From Oscillatoria sp. CS-180 (lineage in GTDB: Bacteria > Cyanobacteriota > Cyanobacteriia > Phormidesmidales > Phormidesmidaceae), in the NCBI RefSeq assembly GCF_028330965.1, contig NZ_JAQMUB010000081.1, positions 1 to 64,000 on the forward strand: a DNA stretch of 64,000 bases, given 5' to 3'. Shown here in pieces: positions 3,095 to 26,215 of the stretch. The position numbers and the translations under genes were made by a program. Under the pieces are notes generated by a model that was not told where the DNA came from, made no database searches, and saw only the letters and a list, made by a program, of their open reading frames with translations. The first letter of the stretch is position 1, and each line of letters starts with the position of its first letter.

Positions 3095-3919
3095 CTAATT
3101 CGAAACCTGACTTTCTGAAAGGGATTCTAAATAGCAGAGGAACTGAATCAACTCTTCTTCTGAAAGCTCGTGACGCGATCGCTTGTTGTAATTTCGTTCT
3201 AGATACTCGCGTCCCGTTTCGACAGACCATCCCAGGCGACGCAGTTCAATATCAGTTTGAGCAATGACATCAGATAAATTGATCGGTGCAGGCAGGGGAG
3301 CAGCTGAACCAGGGTCCTGTTGTGCAGATTCGGAATCAATAGTTGCATCGATAGTTGCGACGACAGTTTTCACTGGCTCATCTGTCTTGACTAGCTCATC
3401 TGTCTTGATTGGCTCATCTGTCTTGACTGGCTCACTTAACTGCACGGGTGCGTCCGACGTTTTAGCCACAGCTTGAGGTGTGGAAGAGACCTGTGGCTCT
3501 GCTTTCTCAATTTTTTGAGTAGCGGAACGAACTGGGGTCAAAACAGTCGTTTCTAACAACTTCGGAGGACCACTATCTGAATCCAGCGCAGACGAGGGTA
3601 CAGCCGTTGCCTTAGTAGAAACAGGCAAGGCAATTTCTGGGGGCAAAGTATCGGTTGCGTCCACCTCAGATGATGACTGCGACGCTTTCGGAGACAAATC
3701 GCTGACGTCATATAATCCCAGACCTGCCAATGCTCGCTGTCGAGCCCGATCTTCAGCCGCTTCAATCACCAAATCAGCCGCAAGCCCCGCCGCTTGCCCT
3801 GACGAGGTCGTTGTGATCGTGACCTTCACCACAAACTGGTCGTCTTTGACCATGAGTATCTCACTCTGAAGAGTCGCATCAGGACAGCGATCGCGAAATG
3901 CTCTCAAAGACACAGTCAT
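3095..3919 (-). CDS. Conserved hypothetical protein with low-complexity middle
   Basis: I do not recognise this 274-residue protein as a named family. Residues 1-72 look folded and alternate beta and helix, including ILMVKDDQFVVKV and an Ala-rich helix. Residues of about 75-210 are Ser/Thr/Glu/Pro-rich and disordered, with an 18-bp tandem repeat. The last ~60 residues form a compact helical domain (IELRRLGWSVETGREYLE, then YNKRSRHELSEEELIQFL). The N-terminal layout loosely recalls single-strand annealing (Rad52/RecT-like) accessory proteins, but I would not assign that. The upstream same-strand genes encode a nuclease-like protein and a RusA resolvase, so a DNA-repair context is possible. Confidence 0.7.
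   Translation of the reverse strand: MTVSLRAFRDRCPDATLQSEILMVKDDQFVVKVTITTTSSGQAAGLAADLVIEAAEDRARQRALAGLGLYDVSDLSPKASQSSSEVDATDTLPPEIALPVSTKATAVPSSALDSDSGPPKLLETTVLTPVRSATQKIEKAEPQVSSTPQAVAKTSDAPVQLSEPVKTDEPIKTDELVKTDEPVKTVVATIDATIDSESAQQDPGSAAPLPAPINLSDVIAQTDIELRRLGWSVETGREYLERNYNKRSRHELSEEELIQFLCYLESLSESQVSN
3373..3426. repeat. 18-bp tandem repeat, three units
   Basis: Three consecutive 18-bp units of the type CTGGCTCATCTGTCTTGA, plus a partial fourth, encode KTDEPV/KTDELV/KTDEPI on the minus strand. They lie in the disordered centre of the 274-residue protein. Unit number could vary between strains by slippage. Confidence 0.9.
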
Positions 3920-4050: not shown

Positions 4051-4392
4051 TCAGCTTGCTTGATGATGTCGAGGATTAGTAACCACTAGATTAAATTGCC
4101 ATCCTGGAATAGATTCCACTTTTTCAACAAGACGCCTTAAGTCCGCAGAACCATTCAACGTTAGATTGGGACGAGAACGCACATCAGCAACGACTGTCTC
4201 GTTTTCACCGTGAGCAATTAACGCGATCGAACAGCCCTGCAGGACGTCTGGCAAAGCCTCGTCCTCAGGATAAAGCATCACATCATAGCCAGCACGTTTA
4301 TACTCACGGGCAAGACGTGACAAGCGACGACGTTCAAGGGGAGTTTCAAAGGGTCGACTCTTCATGACGACTCTATTTGCCTCAGATGACAC
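4051..4392 (-). CDS. Small conserved protein, possibly a degenerate restriction-nuclease fold
   Basis: The product is 113 residues. After a basic N-terminal helix (ETPLERRRLSRLAREYKRAGYDV) come YPEDEALPD, then IALIAHGENETVVADVRSR, and GWQFNLVVTNP near the end. The strand-rich order with an acidic residue followed by a D-V-R triplet resembles a PD-(D/E)XK nuclease core in which the usual E-x-K is altered, so it may be inactive or non-catalytic. This is an inference from pattern only. It overlaps the upstream rusA-like gene by 11 bp and is likely co-translated with it. ATG at 4365 is an alternative start. Confidence 0.65.
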   Translation of the reverse strand: MSSEANRVVMKSRPFETPLERRRLSRLAREYKRAGYDVMLYPEDEALPDVLQGCSIALIAHGENETVVADVRSRPNLTLNGSADLRRLVEKVESIPGWQFNLVVTNPRHHQAS

Positions 4393-4801
4393 TTTCAGGA
4401 TTTTTCAGAATGTCTACTTTAACATGCAAAAACTCTTCGCCCTTGCAGAAACCTTCTGCTAAAGCTACAGACATCCCTTTGACTTGGAAAGAACCGTTGA
4501 GATTACGACGACGATTGTCGAGTTCAGCAATCTGATAGTCGTCTTGGTAAATCACCCCGTTCAACTCGTCCAAAACGGGTTTGATGATTCTTTCACTGTC
4601 CAAATTTTCTCCCATATTTCCCAAAAGCGCATCGTAAAAATGGGTTATCTTTACGTGAAGTTTATCTGTCAATGGTGGATGATCTCCCCAGCAATACTGG
4701 GCAGTTGTTCTCACATGGTCTCGCCAAGCTCTTAGGGCTTTCTTGTCTTTAGCTCGGTGAGGCACAGGCTTGCCGATAATAACAAAATCGAAAGGCAGCA
4801 C
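4382..4801 (-). CDS. RusA-type Holliday junction resolvase
   Basis: The 139-residue product matches the RusA endodeoxyribonuclease family in length and motif order. FDFVIIGKPVPHRAK opens the protein, and the core is NLDSERIIKPVLDELNG followed by YQDDYQI. D68, K74, D78, D87 and D88 are the expected metal-binding and catalytic positions. RusA dimers cut four-way junctions symmetrically with Mg2+ and are often phage-derived, although cyanobacteria carry chromosomal versions. No phage structural genes are nearby. The gene is first in a minus-strand group with the 113-aa and 274-aa genes. Confidence 0.8.
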   Translation of the reverse strand: MLPFDFVIIGKPVPHRAKDKKALRAWRDHVRTTAQYCWGDHPPLTDKLHVKITHFYDALLGNMGENLDSERIIKPVLDELNGVIYQDDYQIAELDNRRRNLNGSFQVKGMSVALAEGFCKGEEFLHVKVDILKNPESVI

Positions 4802-6475: not shown

Positions 6476-7204
6476 TCACTGCACAAAGTTGGCGATTCGG
6501 CTGAAGCTATCGGGTTCCAGGCTTGCTCCACCGACCAACACACCATCAATATCAGATTGGGCCATGATTTCGTCAATGTTGCCGGGTTTAACCGAGCCGC
6601 CATACTGAATGGAAACGCTCTGATTGTCTAATTGCTGACGGATGACTCCGATGATTCGGTTGGCTTCGGTTGTCTCACAGGTATCCCCTGTGCCGATCGC
6701 CCAGATAGGTTCGTAGGCAATCACCAGGTTGCTTTGATCAATATTGACCAAAGCCTGCATCAACTGCTTGCTGATGATGTCTTCCGCTTCACCACGATCT
6801 CGCTGTTCCTTAGTTTCACCCACGCACAGAATAGGCGTTAGGGCATGTCGTTGAGCAGCCATTAGGCGCTTGTTGACGGTCTGGTCCGTTTCACCAAAAA
6901 GCTGACGACGTTCACTATGGCCAACAACGACGTAGCGAATGCCGAATTCTTCCAACATACTGCCGGAGACTTCACCGGTATAAGCGCCACTGTCTTCCCA
7001 GTGAATATTTTGAGCACCCAACATAACCCGACTACCGTGCAAATTCTTAGAAAGCGCACTCAGAGCGGTGAAGGGGACACAGAGTACAACTTCTCGATCT
7101 TGCGGTGTCTCCGAGAGCTGCCCCAAAAAGCCCTGAAGAAACGTCAGCGCTTCTCCTTGGGTTTTGTGCATTTTCCAGTTTCCAGCAATAACAATCTTAC
7201 GCAC
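6476..7204 (-). CDS. tpiA: Triosephosphate isomerase
   Basis: It interconverts dihydroxyacetone phosphate and glyceraldehyde 3-phosphate in glycolysis and the Calvin cycle. The 242-residue product, close to the family norm, has K11 in GNWKMHK, H96 in VVGHSERR and the catalytic E165 in [11 protein letters not shown]. The phosphate-binding loop YGGSVKPGN and the terminal GVLVGGASL are also present. Start [10 protein letters not shown] fits the family exactly. No co-transcribed neighbour is evident. Confidence 0.97.
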
Positions 7205-7337: not shown

Positions 7338-10300
7338 TCACAGCGTCACGAGTTCAGCAATCATGGGTTCTGTCAGCGTTTGATGCTTATTCAACATCAA
7401 AGCAGCCAGATAATTTTGGATGCGATCGCGCTGTTGTTCATTCAGCATGTAAATCTGGCGAGTCTGCTGAGTTAATAAGGGTCTAGAGGTTAGCGCTTGA
7501 GATAACTCACTCATAAGACTCGCCTCAGCAAAGTAGTCTTGAGTGGACGCATCCGGGACAAAACCAGGAGGCAAATGGCCTTCCAAAATAGCCTCAATAC
7601 GAGAGCGACAGGCATCCGTATTGATTCCTTGCTCAGTCAATAGGTGCAGAATGCCTTCAAAGGGCATCGGTGTTCCAGGCACGACTCGGACAATCTCGTG
7701 CAGCAAAAAATAGTCGCTGTATTGATGTCTTGAGATATCGAGTACTTGGGGATAACGACACAGATTTGCCAGACCATAAGCAACACGACTACAGGTCTGC
7801 GGTCGATTGCTGGGATACGTATCTTGAATGATGGTGGCATTCGGGAATTTCTGTCGTAGCCATTTGGCAATGGTACTAAACGATGCATTTCCCCCTGTAC
7901 AAATCACTTGGTTAATCCCCTGAGCCGAGAGACCCGTTTGGCTGAGCAGCGAATTGACTTGTTGATTAAGCCTCTGGATATAAGGCACCAGAACTCGACT
8001 TTCCAAATCTCGGCGCAGGACTTTCCAGGACTGATCGGCCAGCTGTAACTGATACTGGTTTTGATGCTGCAGGATCAGCTTCAAATATCGGGCAGCTTCC
8101 AATAGACTTTGGCCCAATTTTGAAGACTCTAAGTGACGGCGCAAACGAATGCGTTCCCCTAAATCAGGTTCTGCTAGCTGCGGCAAATCCAGGGCCTCGA
8201 TCTGAAGTTCTTCCCAGCGAGCATTGGCCACATCTGGAGAAGTAGCCTGCCAGCCCCAGCCATCTCTGGATGCCCGGCGATCGCTCGCGGTAACCGATTG
8301 CCTCCGCTCAGCCGGAACTAAGAGCTGACAAATGATATCCAGATCGAGCGCATCTCCACCATAGGCAAGATTTCGCAACTTGAAATCCTCATGGCTGAGG
8401 GCATCAAGGGGACGAGGCAAATCAACAGTACCGACCTCTGTACAGATAGAACCGCTACTGATGACCACCGTGCCACCTTGCCAGTTGCATTGATACAGGG
8501 TTTGAGCCTGACGATTTTGCTCTGGCAATGGTTCGTGGGGATCAGGCAATCCTGACAAAACGGCAGCGATCGCCTCTTCCAAAAAGAAAATCTGTCCTGG
8601 AGATGCCACCAAACCTGCTGACAAAACGGCCTCACGCAGATTGATGCAGTAGGTATCCGGCCAATTGCTCGGAATGCCAACAACAACGCCTTGAAGATTG
8701 TCCAAAACGTCGTATAGCAAACTGGTTTCCAACCCCACTGCCTCAAGGCGCAAAGAGACTGCATGGGCCTGTGTAATCAACTCCAGCAGAGCTTGCGTAC
8801 TCATCAGTACCTGCTGTAGTGAGACCGCCTGATCAGTCGTCCATTGGATAGTCGGTTCCCAACGACCCGAAGTGGTTTGGTGCGGAATTCCGATCTTGAG
8901 TAAAGGTTTGAGAGTGTTGATCAGGACATCGGCATTTTCGGAAGTTTCAGATAGAGCTGCCAATCCCACAGCGTTCAAGTGCAGCTCAGTGGCGGCTTCA
9001 GGATTAGTTCGCATGGAGGCAACCGCAGGCATCCGATAGGTTGGTTGGGTCGAGTCGTCATTGGACAGAGGGAACCAACAGAGTGGATGAGCCGAACCGC
9101 TCACATGTTCCATCAGGACTGCCGATAATCCGTTGCTACCAAAATCCAGGCCCAAGAACCATTCTTCTTCAGGACTATCGGATTCACTTGTAGACTCTGG
9201 GTCTTCATCTCCAGGCTCTTCCGTTGGAATGGTGGCTAAGACACTAGACGAGGCAAACACGGCCTCATCAGCCAAGGTCTCTTCGCTGCTATCCTCTTCC
9301 TCAACAGATGGCAATTCAACAGGGGCAGTTCCAATCTCGTCTTCCCGATCAACCGGAACATCCAGATCAACTGCTGCGATCGCGTCGGTGACGAAAAGGT
9401 CCTCATCGGTAATCAACGGTTCTTCAACGTCATCATCTGACGACGATTCTTCAAAATCCTCCACTGACGGCAGTTCAGTAGACGCAACTTCTGTGCTTTC
9501 TTGCTGGTTAAAGAGATCATTTAAATCGGCAATGGTGTCCTCTTCCATTGCAGGCGACACATCATCGGTTGCCGACAAGTCTTCATCAGTTATGGTGTCC
9601 TCTTCCACTACAGGCGACACATCATCGGTTGCCGATAATTCTTCATCAGTTGCCGGAAGGTCTTCTGTCAGCGTGCTGTCTATTGAAGGATCGTCTGCGA
9701 TCGTCGGGGAGGCTTCAAACGACAAAGCATCTTCGAAGGAAACTGATTCGCTGACGTCATCTGTTGAGTCTGCCTCATCAAAAATGACTGAAAACTCAGC
9801 TGCTGTATCCGTATCAGCCTTGCTGGCAGACTCAGAATCAGTAACGCTGGCGGAAAAATCGTCATCAAAAGCGGATCGAAAAGCATCATCATTTTCAAGC
9901 TCAGCCTCACTCATCTCTTCAAAAGACAAGTCAAGACCTGCTGCAAACAAAGAAGGATCAGAGGTTATGGCTTCTGGGTCCCTTGTTTCTGCTGCTTCAG
10001 AAGACCCAGAGTCGGGTCCAGACGATAGTTCTAACTTATTGTCAATTTCATCGGTAATCTCAAAATCGAGGGTTAGAGGATCCCAATCTTCTGAAACGGG
10101 TGTTGGGTTGGGTGATGTCACCTCATCGGAACGATCAGACGACTCCTCAAATAGTTGCTGGGCAGAGTCCTCTGTTTCAGAAGGCGTTGCCGCTATCTCC
10201 TCCAAATCCATGTCGACATCGTCTGTCGTGCCAAAGCCGATGCTGTCTAAGTTAAGCGCGGCATCAAGCGACATTGACGAGGATGCAGAGATCGCCGCAT

Positions 10301-13300
10301 CCTCTCCTGGTGCTTCAGTTAGAACTTCGTCTAGGGAAGAAACACTATCAACCGGGGGAAACAGCTCAGTGAAGTCAGTTTCGGAGTCGACGTCTGCTGA
10401 TGTCAACTCCAGTGTTGAGTCAGTCACCTCTTCTGCCGGAGCGATCGCCGAACTTGCCAAATCCGGGACTTCTAGTTCCACATCTGGGACTTCCAGTTCT
10501 GGACCTTCCAGATTCGATGCGTCTGATTCTGAGGCTTCTGGATTAACAGTTGAATCAGCAGGAGCAACATCATCAAAGAGAAAATCCAGGCCATCTTCAC
10601 TAGCGGGAGTATCCTGTTCGCGATCGTTACTTACAGGTACCTGAGGAGGAAAGAAGTCTGCAAATTCGTCATCTGACAGAGGACCGGCTGCTTCCGCTGG
10701 TGCATTCTCAAGCGGTGTTTCCTGCGCTTCCGCAATGTCCACAGCCGCCTCATCGGACTGGCCCGATTCCAGAGTTATCCAGTCACTTTCTTCCCCAGCC
10801 AAATCAAACAGGTCATCAGCATCGGCTTGGATAGACAGGTCGTCAGCGCTTAAGTCACTGTCAAAGGACTCTGATGAGGTTTCAAGTGAGGTTTCAAGAG
10901 GTTCTGCATTGGCTAAATCTGTCTGAAAAGCGTCCTCCTGAGAACTGTCCTCCGCCTCCGCTGCTGAAAATTCCAGTTCGCTCTCCTGAAAAGATTGCAG
11001 CGTCGATTCACTAATATCGCCACTGGCTGCAGCAACATCCGCTTCAGACGAATCGTCCAAAGAGACGGAAGAGGCGTCACGCTCGGGTGCTGGTGCTGCA
11101 TTCGGATCAAGTTCGTCGTAATTGGGGAGATTATCAAGAGATGAGGTGAAGGACTCCACCTCCGGCTGTTCCAACAAGGCAACCGCATATCCCTCAGAGG
11201 GTGATCCAGTCAGCGTCAGCCCAGCATCGGCATCGATTGGGGCAGTCGAGATTTCCTCGAACGCTTCATTGTCAGCAGCAGATGGTTCAGGCTCCGATGA
11301 AGCTACTGGCTCATCAGGATCGTACTCAGGAATCTCTGCCAGGGATAGCTCGGCAACCGGGAAAGAAAGCGCAGTGACTGAAATCAGCTGATCCTCGTCT
11401 GAAGAAAGACCTTGGCCATACAGCCGATAGGGCGAGTCGCTGGCAAAGTCGTCTTGCCATTCGCTGGAACTATCGTCTTCTGCTGAGACCGCAGGAGGAA
11501 CATCTAGCGTATCCGCGAGGTCAGCTTCGGAACTTTGCTCAGAGGAAACCAGCTGAAAACCGTCGTCCAAGGAACCGGTCAATTGGAAAGCAGGATTTAA
11601 CTCAGATTGAGGCGATCGCACCTCTTCTGCTGCTGTCGTCTCCTGTAATGCCAACAATTCAGCTTCAACGACAGTGTCCTCCGCTGGTCTGTCGGCCAAG
11701 AAGTCAGCATCATCATCAACGCTGGCATAATCAGGAATATCTGTGCTCCAATTAACCAGCTGTTGATCCAGCCTACCTTCAGGGGAGGCAACCGAAAACC
11801 CTTCAGCAATACTGCCCGTCAAAGGCAAACGGGAGTCGGCTATGGATGATGAGCGATCGTCTACGCCAGTTGTATCTGATATATCAGAGGCAGTATCGCT
11901 TTCCGGCGTGTCAGATTCAACGTCTTGAAGCAATGGAGCTTCAGAGCTATCAAGGCTAAAATCATCTGCTAACGCCGGGGAAGGGTCTGTGTCCGTCTCG
12001 ACGTCTAACGATAAATCGAGGTCAAGGTCTCCTAGAGAAAAGATATTGTCTGGCTGCTCAGCGAGACGTTCGCTATGAATAACGTCCTCAAACGAGGGGA
12101 CAGTGTCCTCTAATACGGCATCTTCAGAGGGTGTTGGATTAGAAACTGAATTCGAGTCTTCTCCAATGTTGATAGCTAGATCATCCGCGATCGCACCCTC
12201 ATTCAGCGACCCCTCTCCCTCGTCTTCTACCGTGAGGCTTTCCTCAGAAGGGGCCTCACTCTCAGCTGAGGCTTCAGAAAAATCAGGTAGCTCTAGATCA
12301 AGCGACAGATTATCAAGCGCCAGCGAAAACGATTCGTCCACTGGCTGATCAGAGGACTCAGGTGTTTCGACAATTGAAGAAGTGACATCACCCTGATCGA
12401 TAGTATCGAATGGCAGAGACGAGGACACGCCTAATCCTGGCGAAGATTGATCTTCCAACATTGAAAGATCAGACGTCAGTTTTTCCAGGGTATCGTCATC
12501 CAGCGTTAGCTCTAGGTTTGTTTCAACAGCCTCTCCCTCGCCTTCTAATAGATCCTCATTAGGGGGAGCTGGAATGAACGTGTCCTCTGATTCATCAAAC
12601 GTCGCGAATGGATCAGTCACCCCTTGGAAACCACCTGTCTCTGAATCTGGCAATAGCTCAGCTAAAGAAGCAATGGTATCTCTTGGGGATGAGATTTCTT
12701 CGGCAGGCGTCGTCAACTCATCCGCAATTTCAGTCCCGAGTAGGGTTTCAAGGGACGATGAAGCATCTGGGTCTTCCGGCAACACCGCAGAAGCGTCAGT
12801 CGTTTCCGCCTCTGACAGCGGCGCAGTTGGCTCTATCAAGGTTTCAAGAGAGGTCTCTAGAGGGACCTCAGTCACCTCTTCATCAGCTGTTTCAGACTCA
12901 GTTGTTGGCGCTAGCTCCATCTCGTCAGGCGACCTATTGGCAGCCAGCAAAGACTGCACTAGCCCTGCCTCAAGATCGCCCTCGATAGTGGAATCTTCAT
13001 CGACAAGAAAAGCGTCTTCACTATCTGAAGAGGACACCTCATCTGAAACGACTTCGGTGTCGCCAAACAAACTGACATAAAGGGAATCAATCTCTTCTGT
13101 ATAACCCGCATCTTCCTCCTGAGCTGACGCTGGCTCTGTTGGAGTCGAATCCTCTTCCGATTGCCCAGTTAAAGCGCTCCAAGCAATTGGCTCTGTCTGA
13201 ATGATGGTTTTATCTTCATCGTCGTCATCTGGCGCTGGTACATCTGCGATCGCGTCGAAGTCTTCACTGTCGTCTAGTTGCAGCCCAACAAACTCTCCAT

Positions 13301-14342
13301 CCAGCTGAAACAAAGTCACTTCTTCATCAACGTCGATTTCTGGATCGAGGGAAATGCCTTCCAAATTAACTTCATCCAGACTAACGACTGCATCCATTTG
13401 ATCGTCATCGATTGACAGGGACGCCTCTGAATCTTCAAAAGGTCTCTCCTCTCGTCCTTCTAAACGAGCAACATCCTCTGCTTCACTGCTGGTGAGATAG
13501 CTACCGGTTTCCTGCTGCATTTGCTGCGCTAGGTGATTCACAAAAGTGCGGAAAATGAATTCACCTTGCTGCCCCAAGCCGTGCATAGCGTCTAACCCTT
13601 GATTAAGAGTATCGCTGTAGCTCTGGATACTCTGATCCAACGATTCAAACACAGCACGCAAGTTGGCATCCAGCTTGAGCAACATGTAGTCTGTTTGCGC
13701 TTGAACCTGTTGCAGCTGTTCCAGTCGCTGCTCAGGGGTGAGTTGAGGCAAATCAGCAGCCGCTTCTCGCGGATCTTGAGCCGTGCCATAGAGTAACGGC
13801 GGATTGTTAGATTGAGCCTGCAACGCTCTAATTTGAGGTATCAGCTGCTCCAGCAGAGAAGCTCGTAGCTGATCGACAACTTCGCTAATCCAGGCTGGAT
13901 TCAACCGATCCGTATCTGGGTTATCTACTCTATTTGAACGGTTCAGCTCAAGCTCACGCACTTCGTTTTGCAATGCTTCGCGCTGCTGCTGCAGGGTCAT
14001 GACCTCATTGGTCAAAGGCTGCACCATCTGCACCCGCAGATATTGCATTTCCTGCAGCAAAGCCTGTAGGACTTGGTGACTCGTCGCTTCAGCACTCTCG
14101 TAGGGATCAGGCGTTTCCTGTAGAGTGGAACTGGCGGTGCGATCGCTAGCGACAGCAGCCTGATCCAGCAACACTGTCTTTGCTTCTCGAAATTCTTTCA
14201 AATAAGCCAACGCCAGTTCCATCAGCTGACGCTGTTCACTATCCGCATTGGCTGCACTCCAAGGAAGCTTCGGAGTAGCCCTGCCGAGCAATGCTTCAAT
14301 TTCGGTGATGAGTGCTTGAAGTTGTCCTTGTTGCGAAGTCAC
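7338..14342 (-). CDS. Giant acidic protein with C-terminal Hsp70/actin-like ATPase domain
   Basis: The product is 2334 residues. Residues 1-~300 are helical and coiled-coil prone (QQREALQNEVRELELNR). Residues ~300-1725 are dominated by Asp, Glu, Ser, Thr and Ala with hardly any Lys, and should be disordered. From about 1729 comes an Hsp70-type nucleotide-binding fold: phosphate-1 loop LGLDFGSNGLSAVLM, the connect region VVVGIPSNWPD...EEAIAAVL near 1885-1925, phosphate-2-like QGGTVVIS near 1957, and the adenosine motif VICTGGNASF near 2149. The usual Asp before GGGT is absent, so ATPase activity is uncertain, and no standard substrate-binding domain is seen. The middle repeats LTGS-x3-G-F/Y three times (near 840, 922, 1042). 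The start is GTG. Function is unknown; cell-surface, chaperone-like or cytoskeletal roles are all possible. Confidence 0.85.
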   Translation of the reverse strand: MTSQQGQLQALITEIEALLGRATPKLPWSAANADSEQRQLMELALAYLKEFREAKTVLLDQAAVASDRTASSTLQETPDPYESAEATSHQVLQALLQEMQYLRVQMVQPLTNEVMTLQQQREALQNEVRELELNRSNRVDNPDTDRLNPAWISEVVDQLRASLLEQLIPQIRALQAQSNNPPLLYGTAQDPREAAADLPQLTPEQRLEQLQQVQAQTDYMLLKLDANLRAVFESLDQSIQSYSDTLNQGLDAMHGLGQQGEFIFRTFVNHLAQQMQQETGSYLTSSEAEDVARLEGREERPFEDSEASLSIDDDQMDAVVSLDEVNLEGISLDPEIDVDEEVTLFQLDGEFVGLQLDDSEDFDAIADVPAPDDDDEDKTIIQTEPIAWSALTGQSEEDSTPTEPASAQEEDAGYTEEIDSLYVSLFGDTEVVSDEVSSSDSEDAFLVDEDSTIEGDLEAGLVQSLLAANRSPDEMELAPTTESETADEEVTEVPLETSLETLIEPTAPLSEAETTDASAVLPEDPDASSSLETLLGTEIADELTTPAEEISSPRDTIASLAELLPDSETGGFQGVTDPFATFDESEDTFIPAPPNEDLLEGEGEAVETNLELTLDDDTLEKLTSDLSMLEDQSSPGLGVSSSLPFDTIDQGDVTSSIVETPESSDQPVDESFSLALDNLSLDLELPDFSEASAESEAPSEESLTVEDEGEGSLNEGAIADDLAINIGEDSNSVSNPTPSEDAVLEDTVPSFEDVIHSERLAEQPDNIFSLGDLDLDLSLDVETDTDPSPALADDFSLDSSEAPLLQDVESDTPESDTASDISDTTGVDDRSSSIADSRLPLTGSIAEGFSVASPEGRLDQQLVNWSTDIPDYASVDDDADFLADRPAEDTVVEAELLALQETTAAEEVRSPQSELNPAFQLTGSLDDGFQLVSSEQSSEADLADTLDVPPAVSAEDDSSSEWQDDFASDSPYRLYGQGLSSDEDQLISVTALSFPVAELSLAEIPEYDPDEPVASSEPEPSAADNEAFEEISTAPIDADAGLTLTGSPSEGYAVALLEQPEVESFTSSLDNLPNYDELDPNAAPAPERDASSVSLDDSSEADVAAASGDISESTLQSFQESELEFSAAEAEDSSQEDAFQTDLANAEPLETSLETSSESFDSDLSADDLSIQADADDLFDLAGEESDWITLESGQSDEAAVDIAEAQETPLENAPAEAAGPLSDDEFADFFPPQVPVSNDREQDTPASEDGLDFLFDDVAPADSTVNPEASESDASNLEGPELEVPDVELEVPDLASSAIAPAEEVTDSTLELTSADVDSETDFTELFPPVDSVSSLDEVLTEAPGEDAAISASSSMSLDAALNLDSIGFGTTDDVDMDLEEIAATPSETEDSAQQLFEESSDRSDEVTSPNPTPVSEDWDPLTLDFEITDEIDNKLELSSGPDSGSSEAAETRDPEAITSDPSLFAAGLDLSFEEMSEAELENDDAFRSAFDDDFSASVTDSESASKADTDTAAEFSVIFDEADSTDDVSESVSFEDALSFEASPTIADDPSIDSTLTEDLPATDEELSATDDVSPVVEEDTITDEDLSATDDVSPAMEEDTIADLNDLFNQQESTEVASTELPSVEDFEESSSDDDVEEPLITDEDLFVTDAIAAVDLDVPVDREDEIGTAPVELPSVEEEDSSEETLADEAVFASSSVLATIPTEEPGDEDPESTSESDSPEEEWFLGLDFGSNGLSAVLMEHVSGSAHPLCWFPLSNDDSTQPTYRMPAVASMRTNPEAATELHLNAVGLAALSETSENADVLINTLKPLLKIGIPHQTTSGRWEPTIQWTTDQAVSLQQVLMSTQALLELITQAHAVSLRLEAVGLETSLLYDVLDNLQGVVVGIPSNWPDTYCINLREAVLSAGLVASPGQIFFLEEAIAAVLSGLPDPHEPLPEQNRQAQTLYQCNWQGGTVVISSGSICTEVGTVDLPRPLDALSHEDFKLRNLAYGGDALDLDIICQLLVPAERRQSVTASDRRASRDGWGWQATSPDVANARWEELQIEALDLPQLAEPDLGERIRLRRHLESSKLGQSLLEAARYLKLILQHQNQYQLQLADQSWKVLRRDLESRVLVPYIQRLNQQVNSLLSQTGLSAQGINQVICTGGNASFSTIAKWLRQKFPNATIIQDTYPSNRPQTCSRVAYGLANLCRYPQVLDISRHQYSDYFLLHEIVRVVPGTPMPFEGILHLLTEQGINTDACRSRIEAILEGHLPPGFVPDASTQDYFAEASLMSELSQALTSRPLLTQQTRQIYMLNEQQRDRIQNYLAALMLNKHQTLTEPMIAELVTL
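9532..9651. repeat. 60-bp tandem duplication inside the giant gene
   Basis: Two adjacent 60-bp units (9532-9591 and 9592-9651) differ at only a few positions and keep the frame. They encode two copies of a 20-residue acidic unit with the core LSATDDVSP. This is direct evidence that the acidic region has grown by tandem duplication. Confidence 0.9.
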
Positions 14343-15118
14343 GGCAATCCCCTAGAAACCGACTAACAGCATCAAAACCCGTAAAGAGTAGCGTGCCCTA
14401 TAACTGATCAAAATAGCTTGGTGTTGATAGTCTGCAAGACGAGCTATGTGCCTTTAAGAATACTTTCTACTTCATTCAGTGTGGTTTGAACCGCATCTAG
14501 CTTGCTCAAAGTGTAAGGCAGCAGACTAAAAAAGGTTACTTTTGTTGAGACACGTCCATCAAGTTAAGCCAAAAGAGTTTGGAAACCCATAATCATCCAT
14601 AACCTCTTCACAAACTCGACCAGGAAAATAGCGGCTGATTCGTCATTAGTCATTATGTGGTTATCACTGATGACAGTTTCTATTTGTCATGGAGAATAAA
14701 TGCGATGAAGTCATTTGATATCCACTCAATCGGCTTAAAGCATTGGTCGACCTTGATATCAAGAGAGGCGTCAAAACGCCCGCCATGAATGGGGTATACT
14801 GCGCTTGACACTGATCTAGGTGGGCCATCATCTTAGCCGAGTTGATGGATGAGCCTTACTCTTTCCAACAGCGAAGTTCACACGTTAACCTAAGTGGTGG
14901 ACTCGTTCCGCGTAAGTGATATGCTAAAAAGTTAAAGGCAGAGTGGGTAATCTTGATCGTAAACAACTATATCTTTGCGTAATGGTTCTATGTAGGATTT
15001 CCGGAATTTGAATCGGCAGGTTGATGTTGGAAAAGAGCGCTGCTGAATGGCAGATTTATTCTCAGCCTGGCCGTTGCGACGAACGTTTTGAAAAATTTTG
15101 TTAAGCTCTGGATCTTGA
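14343..15118. other. Long intergenic region between the divergent giant gene and the Crp/Fnr gene
   Basis: These 776 bases must hold the promoters of both divergent genes. I see a perfect TTGACA at 14805-14810 (+) without a convincing -10 at the right spacing, and a small GGCGT-CAAA-ACGCC hairpin at 14767-14780. A 27-codon open frame starting at an ATG near 14704 behind a GGAG is too short to call. Nothing else is recognisable. Confidence 0.45.
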
Positions 15119-15832
15119 GTGTTCATGGATAGTCGTTATGGATCTCGTGACAATCCAATGGATGGAGTGCCGCCTATCCAAGAAACTCCATTTTTTCAGG
15201 GCCTTCCTGAAGACATTGTTCAGAAGGCAACCGCTCAGGCTGTCATTCGACGGCATCCTGCCAATCAGGTCATTTTGCTTGAAAACGATTGGGGAAGCTC
15301 TGTTTACTTCATCTTGGATGGTTGGGTGAAAATCCGAACCTACAACTTGGATGGTAAAGAAATTACGTTGAACATTTTGGGCAAGGGAGAGTTGTTTGGA
15401 GAGATGGCACCGCTGGATGAGGTTCCTCGCTCCACGGATGTCATTACGCTAGTGCCGACAATGATTGGCAACTTGCCTGCGCAAGATTTTGTCAGCTTCA
15501 TTCAAGTTGAACCACTCGCTGGTATCCGCTTGTCAAAGCTGATGGCGCGGCGGCTCCGTCAGGTTAATCGACGACTTCGCTTACGAGAATCCGACAGTAC
15601 GTCACGAGTTACTGACATTTTGTTGTTCTTGGCGGATGGACAAGGAAAGCCTGCCAGGACAGGGTTAGAGATTCCTAATCTACCTCATAGAGAACTCAGT
15701 AGCCTAAGTGGTCTGGCGCGTGAAACGGTGACTAGGGTCCTGAATAAGCTAGAAAAGAAGGGACTGGTCGAGCGCGATCGCGATGTTATGTATATTCCAG
15801 ACGTCGCAGAGCTTGAAAAACTTTTGGTTTAG
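15119..15832 (+). CDS. Crp/Fnr-family transcriptional regulator
   Basis: The 237-residue product has an N-terminal cyclic-nucleotide-binding-type beta roll (about 20-140, including FILDGWVKIRTY and GELFGEMAPLDEVPRS). A dimerisation helix follows, then a C-terminal winged helix (about 170-230) with the recognition helix LSSLSGLARETVTRVLNKLEKKG. It resembles the cyanobacterial Crp group rather than NtcA proper, since the exact NtcA DNA-recognition sequence is not seen. The effector is unknown. The start is GTG at 15119 or ATG at 15125. It probably forms an operon with the DUF2232 and CobT-like genes, which follow within 20 bp each. Confidence 0.88.
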   Translation: MFMDSRYGSRDNPMDGVPPIQETPFFQGLPEDIVQKATAQAVIRRHPANQVILLENDWGSSVYFILDGWVKIRTYNLDGKEITLNILGKGELFGEMAPLDEVPRSTDVITLVPTMIGNLPAQDFVSFIQVEPLAGIRLSKLMARRLRQVNRRLRLRESDSTSRVTDILLFLADGQGKPARTGLEIPNLPHRELSSLSGLARETVTRVLNKLEKKGLVERDRDVMYIPDVAELEKLLV

Positions 15833-15838
15833 TTGGGC

Positions 15839-16639
15839 ATGGAACAGCCTCATTCAAAGGGATTGAGCGATAACCCTACTGACGCTTGGGGCACAGACAT
15901 GCCGATAGCTGATCCTGACGAACTGGCTGAGGTGGAAACCTACTTAGAGTACCGCCCAGCAGACTCCTCAGGTGCTACAGCATCAACGGCTCGTCGGCCT
16001 CAAGTAGGTCCTGCTGCGATGGTGGAAACGGCTTTTTTAGCCAGCGCAGCGAGTTTGATGTGGCTGGTTAATGCTTATTTTCCACCGGGGCCCTTACTGC
16101 GCATCGTTTTTCCATTGCCGATCGCCCTAGTCTATCTTCGCTGGGGAAGTCGGGCCGCTTGGATGGGAGCCTTGGTTTCAGGGTTGCTGCTTGCGGTCCT
16201 CATGGGTCCCCCTCGCAGTCTGTTATATGTCATGCCCTATGGACTCTTGGGCGTTCAGCTGGGTTGGCTATGGCGTAGGGGAGCTTCGTGGTATGCCTCG
16301 ATTGGGTTGGGAACTCTCCTAAGTACACTCGGTTTTTTCGTGCGCCTATGGCTTCTCTCCCTAATGTTGGGAGAAGATATGTGGGTTTATCTGATCAACC
16401 AGGCAACTCAGATCATTAACTGGATGTTGGCACGCTTAGTAAACCTGGGCTTGGTTGGATGGGGCAGTCTGAGTCAGTCCAATACGTCTTTGATCCAAAT
16501 CGTTGCTTTGGTCATCGTGGTGATCAGTTCATTAGTGTACTTATTTACGGTTCACCTAGCATCTTGGCTATTACTGGAACGGTTGGGAGAAAAAATTCCG
16601 TCTCCTCCCAATTGGGTGCAACAATTACTGGAGAGTTGA
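15839..16639 (+). CDS. DUF2232 integral membrane protein
   Basis: About 266 residues. A soluble acidic N-terminus of some 60 residues precedes roughly six to seven hydrophobic segments, for example LRIVFPLPIALVYLRWG, AWMGALVSGLLLAVLMG and IVALVIVVISSLVYLF. The GPPRSLLYVMPYGLLG loop and the overall layout fit the DUF2232 (YybS-like) family, whose function is unknown, with a possible transporter-component role. I prefer ATG 15839 over the TTG at 15833. The gene starts 6 bp after the regulator's stop, indicating co-transcription. Confidence 0.8.
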   Translation: MEQPHSKGLSDNPTDAWGTDMPIADPDELAEVETYLEYRPADSSGATASTARRPQVGPAAMVETAFLASAASLMWLVNAYFPPGPLLRIVFPLPIALVYLRWGSRAAWMGALVSGLLLAVLMGPPRSLLYVMPYGLLGVQLGWLWRRGASWYASIGLGTLLSTLGFFVRLWLLSLMLGEDMWVYLINQATQIINWMLARLVNLGLVGWGSLSQSNTSLIQIVALVIVVISSLVYLFTVHLASWLLLERLGEKIPSPPNWVQQLLES

Positions 16640-16652
16640 TCAGTATCCTGCT

Positions 16653-17795
16653 ATGAACCGCGTCTACACCCAAACGACCCGAGGGCAGGGATGGTTACGA
16701 CGCTATCTAGGGCACCGACCTCGTTTGGTTTGTGTTTTGGGATTCACGGAAACGGCACTGATTCCAGGCATTTCTGCCGCAGGTGCCACACCTCACGATC
16801 GCCAAACTACCGCGATCGCAGACGCTGAATTCCTCTATCGAGGCCCTGTTCTGGTACCCAAATATCCGTTACCTCCTTTGATCAACGGAGTTTCTCCAGT
16901 GATCATTTCTCGGGCTATTGCTTCAACGCAGCGGATACCGCTCTTGCTTTTCAATGCCGGTTTGCCAATTGCGCCAACGGTTCCTCATATTGATCTCAGA
17001 GGAGCACCTGCTGCCTGTGTCAGTACAGGGCAGGCGATGGATAAAAGTACGGTAGCGTCTCTGTTTCGACTAGGGATGGCATGGGGTCACCGTTTGGGCA
17101 GTGAAGCTGATTCCAACTATGTGATTCTGGGCGAATGCGTTGTTGGAGGAACAACAACAGCTTTAGCCCTGTTAACGGGGCTAGGATTTCCGGTACAAGG
17201 AAAAGTAGGCAGCAGTCATGCCGTCTGCAATCATGAGCAAAAGCAGGCGATCGTCCAGCAGGGACTCAGCAGATGGTCAGATCGTCAAAAGGCTTGTCCC
17301 TCTAATGACCTGTTTGACGTAGTAGCTGCCATTGGGGATCCAACACAGATCGTGGTAGCCGCAATGGCCATCACAGCTAGTTTCTATGGCGGAGTCATGC
17401 TGGCGGGGGGTACCCAAATGCTGGCAGTATACGCGCTGGCACGAGCCTTGGCCAAGCAACGCCGGATTCCCTGGCAGTGTGACAAGATCGTTGTAGGCAC
17501 GACACGCTGGGTAGCTGAAGATCCAACCTGCAAAACTGTTGAACTGGCTGAACTTATTGACGATGTACCGCTAATTGCAACACAGCTTTCCTTCAGCGAA
17601 TCTCGGTATGCACCTTTGCGCCAGTATGAATCGGGCTATGTCAAAGAAGGCGTTGCGGCAGGTGCATGTGCGATCGCAGCCAACCTCTATCAACACTGGC
17701 AGCAGCCACAACTGCTGGGTGCTATCGAAGCACTGTACGAAAAGATCCTGCGGCAGCAAATGACTCGTGCTGTGGCCATAGCTTCTGAAGTCTAG
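16653..17795 (+). CDS. cobT: CobT-like nicotinate-mononucleotide phosphoribosyltransferase (TIGR00303 type)
   Basis: The 380-residue product matches the cyanobacterial/archaeal-type CobT family, which activates the lower base of (pseudo)cobalamin by transferring phosphoribose from nicotinate mononucleotide. Family-like features are GFTETALIPGISAAGATPHDR near the start, the stretch VGGTTTALALLTGLG, and the glycine-rich GGVMLAGGTQMLAVYAL. It begins 13 bp after the DUF2232 gene. Whether cobalt supply links this enzyme to the membrane protein upstream is speculation. I see no cobalamin riboswitch near it. A strong hairpin follows at 17958. Confidence 0.82.
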   Translation: MNRVYTQTTRGQGWLRRYLGHRPRLVCVLGFTETALIPGISAAGATPHDRQTTAIADAEFLYRGPVLVPKYPLPPLINGVSPVIISRAIASTQRIPLLLFNAGLPIAPTVPHIDLRGAPAACVSTGQAMDKSTVASLFRLGMAWGHRLGSEADSNYVILGECVVGGTTTALALLTGLGFPVQGKVGSSHAVCNHEQKQAIVQQGLSRWSDRQKACPSNDLFDVVAAIGDPTQIVVAAMAITASFYGGVMLAGGTQMLAVYALARALAKQRRIPWQCDKIVVGTTRWVAEDPTCKTVELAELIDDVPLIATQLSFSESRYAPLRQYESGYVKEGVAAGACAIAANLYQHWQQPQLLGAIEALYEKILRQQMTRAVAIASEV

Positions 17796-25534: not shown

Positions 25535-26215
25535 ATGAAGACACCAAAGTCCGATCCAAAGTTGTCTTCCGCCTCAGAGTACGCTCTGATTTTTGGAGCT
25601 GGTGTCAGCGCTGCTGCTTCGTTGGCTGCTCAACAAGTTGCTGCTGCTTCGCTGCCGGTCACAGCTCTTGTTGCGCTTGGACTGGTTAATCGTCGTCGCC
25701 TTGACCAACAGATTAAAGAAGGGCACCCCCAAGATTCACGACTTGAGGAACAGTCCACTCGCGATGTCAGCTCTGGGCAACTGAAACAACAAGTAACGGC
25801 TTCTCCACTGCCCGAAATTCAAATGGCGCAACCCTTGCCGGAAGTGCAGATGGCACAACCTTTGCCGGAAGTGCAAATGGCACAACCCCAGGTAACACCT
25901 CGACGAAGAAGCAGTCGCATAGACTTCTCTCGAAGACGACCCATGGATGCTGATAAAGAAAGATTAGTTTCAGTCCAGAAAGATAGTCTTCAAAAAATCG
26001 GAGCTTATCTTTATCAAACCCGTCAGAAACAAGGTCTCTCCTTACAGGATATCCATCAAAAAACCTTCATCCAGCGGTATGCGCTCAAAGCAATTGAGGC
26101 TGGCGATTTAGACACTCTACCGGAACCTTTTTACGTTCGTGCATTTATTCACAAATATGCAGTTGCATTGGGCTTGATTGATTGCGACGTAGCAGCTGAT
26201 TTCCCAGTTTTCTAG
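25535..26215 (+). CDS. RodZ-type HTH domain protein with inverted architecture
   Basis: 226 residues. Residues 11-55 are Ala/Leu-rich and could span or enter a membrane (LIFGAGVSAAASLAAQQVAAASLPV). A charged linker contains three 9-residue repeats, LPE(I/V)QMAQP. Residues of about 148-220 form a HTH_25/RodZ-like helix-turn-helix (IGAYLYQTRQKQGLSLQDIHQKTFIQ...YVRAFIHKYAVALGL). In RodZ the HTH is N-terminal and the membrane helix follows; here the order is reversed and there is no periplasmic domain. It is probably a cyanobacteria-specific relative acting at the membrane or with MreB-like partners, but that is inference. Confidence 0.75.
   Translation: MKTPKSDPKLSSASEYALIFGAGVSAAASLAAQQVAAASLPVTALVALGLVNRRRLDQQIKEGHPQDSRLEEQSTRDVSSGQLKQQVTASPLPEIQMAQPLPEVQMAQPLPEVQMAQPQVTPRRRSSRIDFSRRRPMDADKERLVSVQKDSLQKIGAYLYQTRQKQGLSLQDIHQKTFIQRYALKAIEAGDLDTLPEPFYVRAFIHKYAVALGLIDCDVAADFPVF
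25808..25888. repeat. 27-bp tandem repeat, three units
   Basis: Three consecutive in-frame 27-bp units (25808, 25835, 25862) encode LPEIQMAQP/LPEVQMAQP/LPEVQMAQP. Units two and three are nearly identical, implying recent duplication. Confidence 0.9.

Follow-up and report, generated by a model that had tools for sequence, protein, structure and literature searches.

What can a 2,334-residue protein do with an Hsp70-like ATPase at its far C-terminal end, placed behind a helical module and an acidic arm of some 1,400 residues? The question is raised by a gene on the minus strand of a 64,000-nucleotide (nt) stretch of DNA from Oscillatoria sp. CS-180 (NCBI RefSeq assembly GCF_028330965.1, contig NZ_JAQMUB010000081.1, positions 1 to 64,000), referred to here as the window, in a genome of 6.5 Mb. 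By profile comparison, the C-terminal domain is homologous to the nucleotide-binding domain (NBD) of Hsp70; in many families of the class, both ends of the protein are conserved; the N-terminal scaffold and the ATPase are found as one gene or as a pair of adjacent genes; the gene sits in a recurring context; and the family co-occurs with HetR. We propose that the giant protein may be a tethered ATP switch on a multimeric scaffold of multicellular cyanobacteria, a reading whose chances we judge to be evenly balanced. The gene and its parts are as follows.

7338 to 14342, minus strand: whole open reading frame (ORF), 2,334 residues, GTG start; ORF call and orthologues with the same layout
13455 to 14342, minus strand: N-terminal helical/coiled-coil module, residues 1–296; alignment A4, AlphaFold2 model and profile matches
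9168 to 13442, minus strand: acidic, Ser-rich arm, residues 301–1725, net charge −392; composition
13059 to 13097, minus strand: conserved short motif EEIDSLYVSLFGD, residues 416–428; motif count against shuffled arms
7731 to 9161, minus strand: divergent Hsp70-type NBD, residues 1728–2204; hhalign, Foldseek and the phosphate-1 Asp
8433 to 8471, minus strand: phosphate-2 loop TVVISSGSICTEV, residues 1958–1970, with Ser in place of Asp; hhalign and motif count
7341 to 7730, minus strand: family-specific C-terminal extension, residues 2205–2334 (RHQYSDYFLL...); conserved in profiles A1 and A2

The C-terminal domain was characterized with two profiles. A1 combines the window protein with 13 of the 20 loci found in named relatives (Halomicronema, Leptolyngbya, Nodosilinea and allied forms; 48–68% identity in the best segment), L026, with 17 stops in its translation, being excluded. 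A2 is a profile of 36 members, the window protein and 35 other sequences, built without the reduced forms L086–L089, without L082, L090 and L092 and without 18 of the 20 named-relative loci. hhalign matched A2 to a 532-residue Hsp70-like protein of the same genome with a probability of 89.2 and to the same-genome DnaK with 75.7 over 220 columns, in which the connect, phosphate-2 and adenosine motifs fall in register; the corresponding values were 59.4 over 97 columns for MreB and 0.4 for PilM. These alignments begin past the phosphate-1 motif, which was assigned by eye. The best PDB sequence match of the A2 profile is a DnaK (E=7e-4), and a Foldseek search with the model of the C-terminal region returned 501 PDB matches, of which the 50 listed are all Hsp70 or Hsp110 NBDs (E 7e-10 to 1e-8). 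An Hsp70/actin-type nucleotide-binding domain at the C-terminus had been proposed in an earlier note made from the letters of the window alone, and hhalign and Foldseek bear it out; in the comparison with Hsp70 and MreB that the note had suggested, Hsp70 is nearer. The match to the Hsp70 fold is local.

The motifs of this domain are unevenly kept. The window protein reads LGLDFGS at phosphate-1, EEAIAAVL at connect and VICTGG at the adenosine motif, and hhalign sets VVISSGSICTEV (residues 1959–1970) against VFDLGGGTFDV of DnaK, which identifies it as the phosphate-2 loop. The earlier note had seen that the catalytic Asp of this loop is missing, and so it is; in the hhalign alignment the loop is not the 'QGGTV' stretch. 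Among the 36 A2 members, the phosphate-1 Asp is invariant (36/36), as is the first adenosine Gly (36/36, with the second in 29), and the phosphate-2 Gly is present in 35 and the connect Glu in 28, whereas the phosphate-2 position holds Asp in only five, Asn in 17, Ser in five (one of them the window protein) and another residue in nine.

Neither Pfam nor NCBIfam has a model that matches the window protein at its cut-off. Against Pfam HSP70 it scores 11.4 bits (E=0.09; cut-off 20.6), and eight of the 36 A2 members match this model at E≤0.1 (best 8e-4); against PilM_2 it scores 18.4 bits (E=1e-3; cut-off 27), over positions 239–308 of 340 only; and the NCBIfam models HscA (E=1e-4) and PRK11678, which we take to be YegD (E=2e-3), are matched far below their cut-offs. 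The Pfam and NCBIfam Hsp70 matches stop within the NBD and a substrate-binding domain was not detected, in agreement with the claim of the earlier note that a peptide-binding domain is absent. The protein is a divergent representative of the Hsp70 superfamily and not a member of the Hsp70 family proper, because it lacks the phosphate-2 Asp, a score above the curated cut-off and a detectable substrate-binding domain. The C-terminal extension of about 130 residues, mostly helical in a low-confidence model, gave no match in a Pfam scan. The 532-residue Hsp70-like protein (G000:C49 75863–77458, equal to L004:829–2424) is the sole other match to the family profile in the genome, and the three DnaK-like genes of that genome are not members of the giant family.

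The reading frame itself appears sound. Uninterrupted ORFs of 2,185–2,608 residues with the same layout occur in a dozen other loci (for instance L057 with 2,608 residues, L010 with 2,580, L011 with 2,433, L018 of Nodosilinea nodulosa PCC 7104 with 2,411 and L009 with 2,294), and smaller members are also found (L058 with 1,663 residues and L025 with 1,331). Since the layout and size recur in other genomes, the window ORF is unlikely to be an artefact of assembly, and since a single frame runs through it, the acidic part is not a separate gene in the window. The gene is real and conserved, and in its lineage it is one gene; the giant protein and the unusual order of its domains, with the ATPase at the C-terminus and the acidic arm in the same gene, were both correctly recognized in the earlier note.

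The remainder of the protein consists of a conserved end and a variable middle. In an alignment of 13 sequences (A4), residues 1–296 are conserved; the AlphaFold2 model of this N-terminal module (N-module) is nearly all helix, with a predicted local distance difference test (pLDDT) score of 62.8, and Foldseek found no PDB match for it at E≤0.001 (best E 2.0). The acidic region that had been reported as about 1,400 residues rich in Asp, Glu and Ser measures 1,425 residues (301–1725), with 14.7% Asp, 14.1% Glu, 14.0% Ser, 0.3% Lys and 1.1% Arg, and from this composition it is presumably disordered. In the long members checked the arm is between about 240 and 1,690 residues long, with arms of about 1,400–1,700 residues in the genus of the window and in G135, and its net charge per residue varies from −0.16 to −0.30 in 15 genomes. 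A short motif of the form EEIDxLYxSLFG is embedded in it. Counted as [LIVM][YFW]x[SANTD][LIVM][FW] beyond residue 250, this motif is found in 41 of 89 proteins and is kept in 40 of the 70 complete ones, the latter being taken separately since no more than 1.5 kb of upstream sequence was available for many loci; when the arms of all 89 are shuffled, 1.25 proteins carry it, a comparison that is no independent test because the proteins are related. The motif sits at about residue 270–530 in families f1, f4, f7, f11, f15, f16 and f29, and its conservation points to specific binding. The arm of the window protein also holds three similar stretches, LTGSIAEGF, LTGSLDDGF and LTGSPSEGY (11187–11822, minus strand), and a 60-nt direct repeat of two copies with 93% matches (9532–9651), perhaps a recent expansion.

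The taxonomic survey that the earlier note had recommended was made with A1, which located the family in 89 of the 386 Cyanobacteriota genomes sampled and in 47 of 142 genera, all within the class of the window. A search with A2 reached 112 genomes at E≤1e-6, 23 more than A1; the 22 of these that were listed match in the adenosine region only, in frames of 519–675 residues that correspond to the Hsp70-like paralogue. Frames of 519–576 residues with the same partial match to the family profile recur across cyanobacteria, among the matches listed. In seven g30 genomes a reduced form of about 400 residues occurs, in which the N-module was not detected.

In the 89 genomes, the N-module profile matches either the ORF that carries the NBD or the ORF directly upstream on the same strand: 58 genomes are fused, 21 are split into two same-strand ORFs, and in 10 the N-module was not detected, two of these (G328 and G074) owing to a truncated locus. 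A maximum-likelihood tree was built from 36 NBDs, 20 of them labelled fused, 13 split and three left unlabelled; support is weak for several of its deep branches, and some of its rows are long. It requires at least seven changes between the two states, at least three of them forced by well-supported branches. Shuffled labels require 10.5, so the state is partly clustered. Repeated fusion and fission is classical evidence of joint function, and its occurrence on this tree suggests that scaffold and ATPase are probably functional partners.

The junction between the two parts carries an unusual feature in the relatives. In the 600 nt that precede the NBD, 31 of the 89 genomes (31 of 109 loci) have a run of 9–11 A residues (A9–A11), where 0.5 would be expected. 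The background, for which only loci of 6,500 nt or more were used, is five runs of A≥9 in 713,208 nt of other ORFs, or 0.0042 per 600 nt, and within the run-bearing loci 0.0103 per 600 nt. The feature recurs in eight families (f4, f5, f7, f8, f9, f11, f15 and f29); an example lies at about 10166–10175 of L060, and others are in L065, L067 and L113. Twenty cases are in frame, namely 18 that were scored as fused, plus G328 and G074, whose open frames of 1,480 and 1,511 residues led us to count them so; the run is A10 in 19 of them and A9 in one, and a slip by one A would terminate the protein after 0–43 residues. The other 11 cases are split (A9 in four, A10 in six, A11 in one), amounting to 11 of the 21 split genomes, and there each run falls inside the overlap between the two frames or next to it; the overlaps of G099, G203 and G336, about 13 nt long, nearly coincide with the run. 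In four of the 11 (G060, G039, G203 and G336) none of the codons ATG, GTG and TTG precedes the NBD in its frame, and each of the other seven offers at least one possible start, whether or not a plausible ribosome site accompanies it. Out-of-frame parts that meet at an A-run, four of them lacking a start codon, suggest recoding by slippage as in dnaX. Two-ORF dnaX genes with 10 A's, and a run of 9 A's in Thermus thermophilus, are described in the main text of PMC3711429. The dnaX-type heptamer A_AAA_AAG stands in the ATPase frame in 16 of the 31 cases and the rest end in AAT, AAC, AAA or otherwise, which would favour transcriptional slippage over ribosomal frameshifting. L007, L026 (judged to be a frameshifted sequence from a metagenome-assembled genome) and L086 have no run of A≥9 and stand outside this count. 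Conservation of the junction lysines as protein is a poor explanation for the run, since f7 members without it (G042, G068, G199 and G284) have lost the lysines too; as a counter-case, G127, G155 and G376, also without the run, keep two by eye.

HetR is a gene tied to filamentous cyanobacteria. The HetR_C domain occurs in 80 of the 386 sampled genomes, in 73 of the 89 carriers of the giant family and in 7 of the 297 non-carriers, counts that are not corrected for ancestry. Within the 109 genomes that hold the Crp-type gene diverging from the giant gene (see below), 69 have both the family and HetR, 11 the family only, 6 HetR only and 23 neither (Fisher p=3e-10, likewise uncorrected). At the family level, 14 taxonomic families include genomes with both, three have the giant family only and one has HetR only. 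The giant family thus resides mostly in genomes with HetR, from which we infer a link to filaments. It connects an uncharacterized ATPase of the Hsp70/actin superfamily to HetR genomes, and this link would make it a concrete candidate for a part in bacterial multicellularity, whose machinery is poorly known.

The following model of the switch can be drawn. The helical N-module would probably assemble or oligomerize, and the long acidic arm would give reach and carry the docking-like motif. The NBD, in which a substrate-binding domain was not detected, may bind ATP and hydrolyse it slowly or not at all, with a slow reset, because the phosphate-2 Asp is usually Asn or Ser while the phosphate-1 Asp is kept. 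The ATP or ADP state, rather than fast cycling, would then set the conformation of the NBD, which might dock on or clamp the LYxSLFG motif of the arm or a client, and the whole protein would organize an assembly in filamentous cyanobacteria. Where relatives have an A9–A11 junction, slippage would make scaffold-only and scaffold-plus-ATPase chains and set their ratio, while the lineage of the window would have fixed the fused form. A bolder version, for which we judge the chance to be a little below even, is that the whole family arose from a recoded gene: slippage of RNA polymerase or the ribosome on the A9–A11 run would have ended the chain at the arm or extended it into the ATPase at a fixed ratio, for an assembly specific to multicellular forms, and the gene would later have been frozen as a fusion (the window) or as two genes. 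If true, this reading would make the protein a novel type of Hsp70-based machine, in which scaffold and ATPase are recoded much as dnaX is. Use of the A-run junction would also turn the family into a natural experiment of a recoded gene resolving into fusion or fission, and fused, split and slippery states stand side by side in one class.

Several observations weigh against these proposals. The AlphaFold2 model of the C-terminal region is weak (pLDDT 56.7, predicted template modelling (TM) score 0.36) and the Foldseek matches have TM scores of only 0.2–0.35 with root-mean-square deviations of 16–24 Å, hence the local character of the fold match. The arm motif was not found in 30 of the 70 complete proteins. 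There are 16 carriers without HetR, seven of them reduced forms, and seven HetR genomes without the giant family. As to slippage, the window ORF has no run of A≥6, no junction run of A≥9 occurs in the 20 named-relative loci, 58 of the 89 genomes lack one, and so do 10 of the 21 split genomes, which look like simple pairs of genes. Most run-bearing genomes are drafts, in which homopolymer errors or phase variation are possible.

This last point leads to the rival with the most substance, namely that the A-run is a slipped-strand phase-variation switch or a homopolymer error of sequencing or assembly instead of a recoding site; we allow it a considerable, though minority, share of probability. 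Poly-A/T is slippery for DNA polymerase as well, according to the main text of PMC3711429, and within genus g14 the closely similar L067 (A10, fused) and L065 (A11, split) differ by what may be an indel or an error. Set against this, the NBD frame stays open in five of the six g14 genomes, all five being out of frame, the split state with A≥9 is also found in three single-contig genomes (G011, G286 and G099), the NBD frames of G039, G203 and G336 and, in another family, G060 have no start codon of their own, and the junction recurs in eight families. The ATPase may alternatively be dead, a pseudo-ATPase retained for a structural or protein-binding role. The loss of the phosphate-2 Asp in all but 5 of 36 members and the incomplete conservation of the connect Glu speak for it; the retained phosphate-1 Asp, phosphate-2 Gly and adenosine Gly suggest that nucleotide is still bound, and on balance we regard a dead domain as somewhat unlikely.

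Three other explanations have less to commend them. If the arm were the working part, as a polyanionic holdase, ion buffer or osmolyte-like element that the ATPase only regulates, its extreme composition and the great length that it reaches in the genus of the window and in G135 would be accounted for. This idea, in part already raised in the earlier note, found no specific support: arm length and charge vary, yet both ends are conserved, the ATPase is a separate ORF in 21 of the 89 genomes, and the motif inside the arm points to specific binding; it appears improbable. We give a similarly small chance to an actin-like cytoskeletal or pilus-platform protein of the PilM/MreB type. Pfam PilM_2 does pick up 16 of the 36 members at E≤0.1 (6e-4 at best, the window protein below the cut-off), but in the window protein the matched stretch is the shared adenosine region only, the hhalign probabilities of 0.4 and 59 compare with 76–89 for the Hsp70s, the Foldseek matches listed are all Hsp70 or Hsp110 NBDs, and the identified recurring neighbours are not pilus genes. 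Giant coiled-coil/ATPase proteins are common in anti-phage defence, and a defence or mobile-element protein was considered for this reason. It is hardly credible here: the three proteins searched against PADLOC had no match at E≤0.1, no plasmid match was found for the NBD, and the same neighbours recur in 37–47 of 61 loci. Membership among PilM, MreB or defence proteins was rejected on this profile, Foldseek, PADLOC and context evidence.

Set beside known systems, the giant family shares with DnaK/Hsp70 (PF00012) the aligned connect, phosphate-2 and adenosine regions, preceded by an Hsp70-type phosphate-1 motif; it differs in that its phosphate-2 Asp is mostly lost, in the sub-threshold score of the window protein, in the position of the NBD behind scaffold and arm and in the lack of a detectable substrate-binding domain. 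Compact Hsp70-like proteins (HscA, PRK11678 and the 532-residue paralogue) are its nearest profile neighbours, although the paralogue, a separate gene of the same genome, is too short for such an arm. PilM and MreB belong to the same ATPase superfamily, and weak PilM_2 matches occur, but the hhalign values against the same-genome proteins are 0.4 and 59 and the gene context differs. No ATPase domain is known in HmpF, All4981, Fm7001 or ZicK/ZacK. These coiled-coil-rich proteins resemble the giant family in being helical scaffolds of cyanobacteria (PMC7766704, in part). That an Hsp70-type ATPase can have a structural task of its own in a filamentous cyanobacterium has a precedent in Nostoc punctiforme, where the DnaK1-DnaJ3-GrpE chaperone system serves the type IV pilus motors (PMC9239167, in part); there, however, the chaperone is of the DnaK type. 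dnaX and other slippage-recoded genes resemble the family in their A-rich junction and their one-ORF or two-ORF forms (main text of PMC3711429), but dnaX encodes a different protein, and recoding in the giant family is a proposal drawn from sequence. A literature search yielded no paper recognized as being on this family, which does not prove that none exists. The terms Hsp70, DnaK, Nostoc and Anabaena are absent from the main text of PMC3711429 and from the first 300,000 characters of that of PMC5009743, whose supplements may list the family.

The surroundings of the gene are conserved on one side, as a check for conserved neighbours in 61 loci, many of them ending early, revealed:

14343 to 15118, no strand: 776-nt intergenic region common to the giant gene and the divergent Crp-type gene; no CRP-type palindrome above chance
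15119 to 15832, plus strand: Crp-type transcription regulator, divergent neighbour; Pfam cNMP_binding and HTH_Crp_2; 44 of 61 loci
15833 to 16639, plus strand: DUF2232 membrane protein, conserved neighbour; 47 of 61 loci
16653 to 17795, plus strand: TIGR00303 CobT-like phosphoribosyltransferase, conserved neighbour; 37 of 61 loci
6476 to 7204, minus strand: triose-phosphate isomerase, next gene downstream; in no neighbour cluster common to more than two loci

These neighbours are as a rule divergent from the giant gene. The 776-nt region had been described as a long private promoter, a description that does not hold, as it is shared with the Crp-type gene. The Crp-type protein is very conserved and more widespread than the giant family (109 of 386 genomes at ≥55% identity). 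Among NCBIfam models it comes closest to PRK11753, CRP, without reaching the cut-off, and NCBIfam does not support an identity as NtcA (44 bits against a cut-off of 245). Scans for regulatory sites gave no clear signal: six NtcA-type sites against 4.7 expected, 21 CRP palindromes against 31.6 in one scan, and in 40 intergenic regions, where 0.58 would be expected, no CRP-type site scoring at least 9 of 10. Scans for promoters and terminators likewise stayed at chance level. The Crp-type, DUF2232 and TIGR00303 genes form a conserved trio (15119–17795), of which the Crp-type gene also occurs in genomes without the giant gene. In Synechocystis, sll1371-sll1372-sll1373 form one unit with SyCRP1 first (PMC2633013, in part), which may or may not equal the trio of the window.

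Elsewhere in the window, an AHJR-like restriction-type nuclease adjoins a RusA-like resolvase (4051–4801, minus strand). An 18-nt tandem repeat of 3.5 copies (3372–3434) lies in an ORF with no Pfam match (3095–3919), and a 27-nt tandem repeat of three copies (25809–25888) lies in the ORF at 25535–26215.

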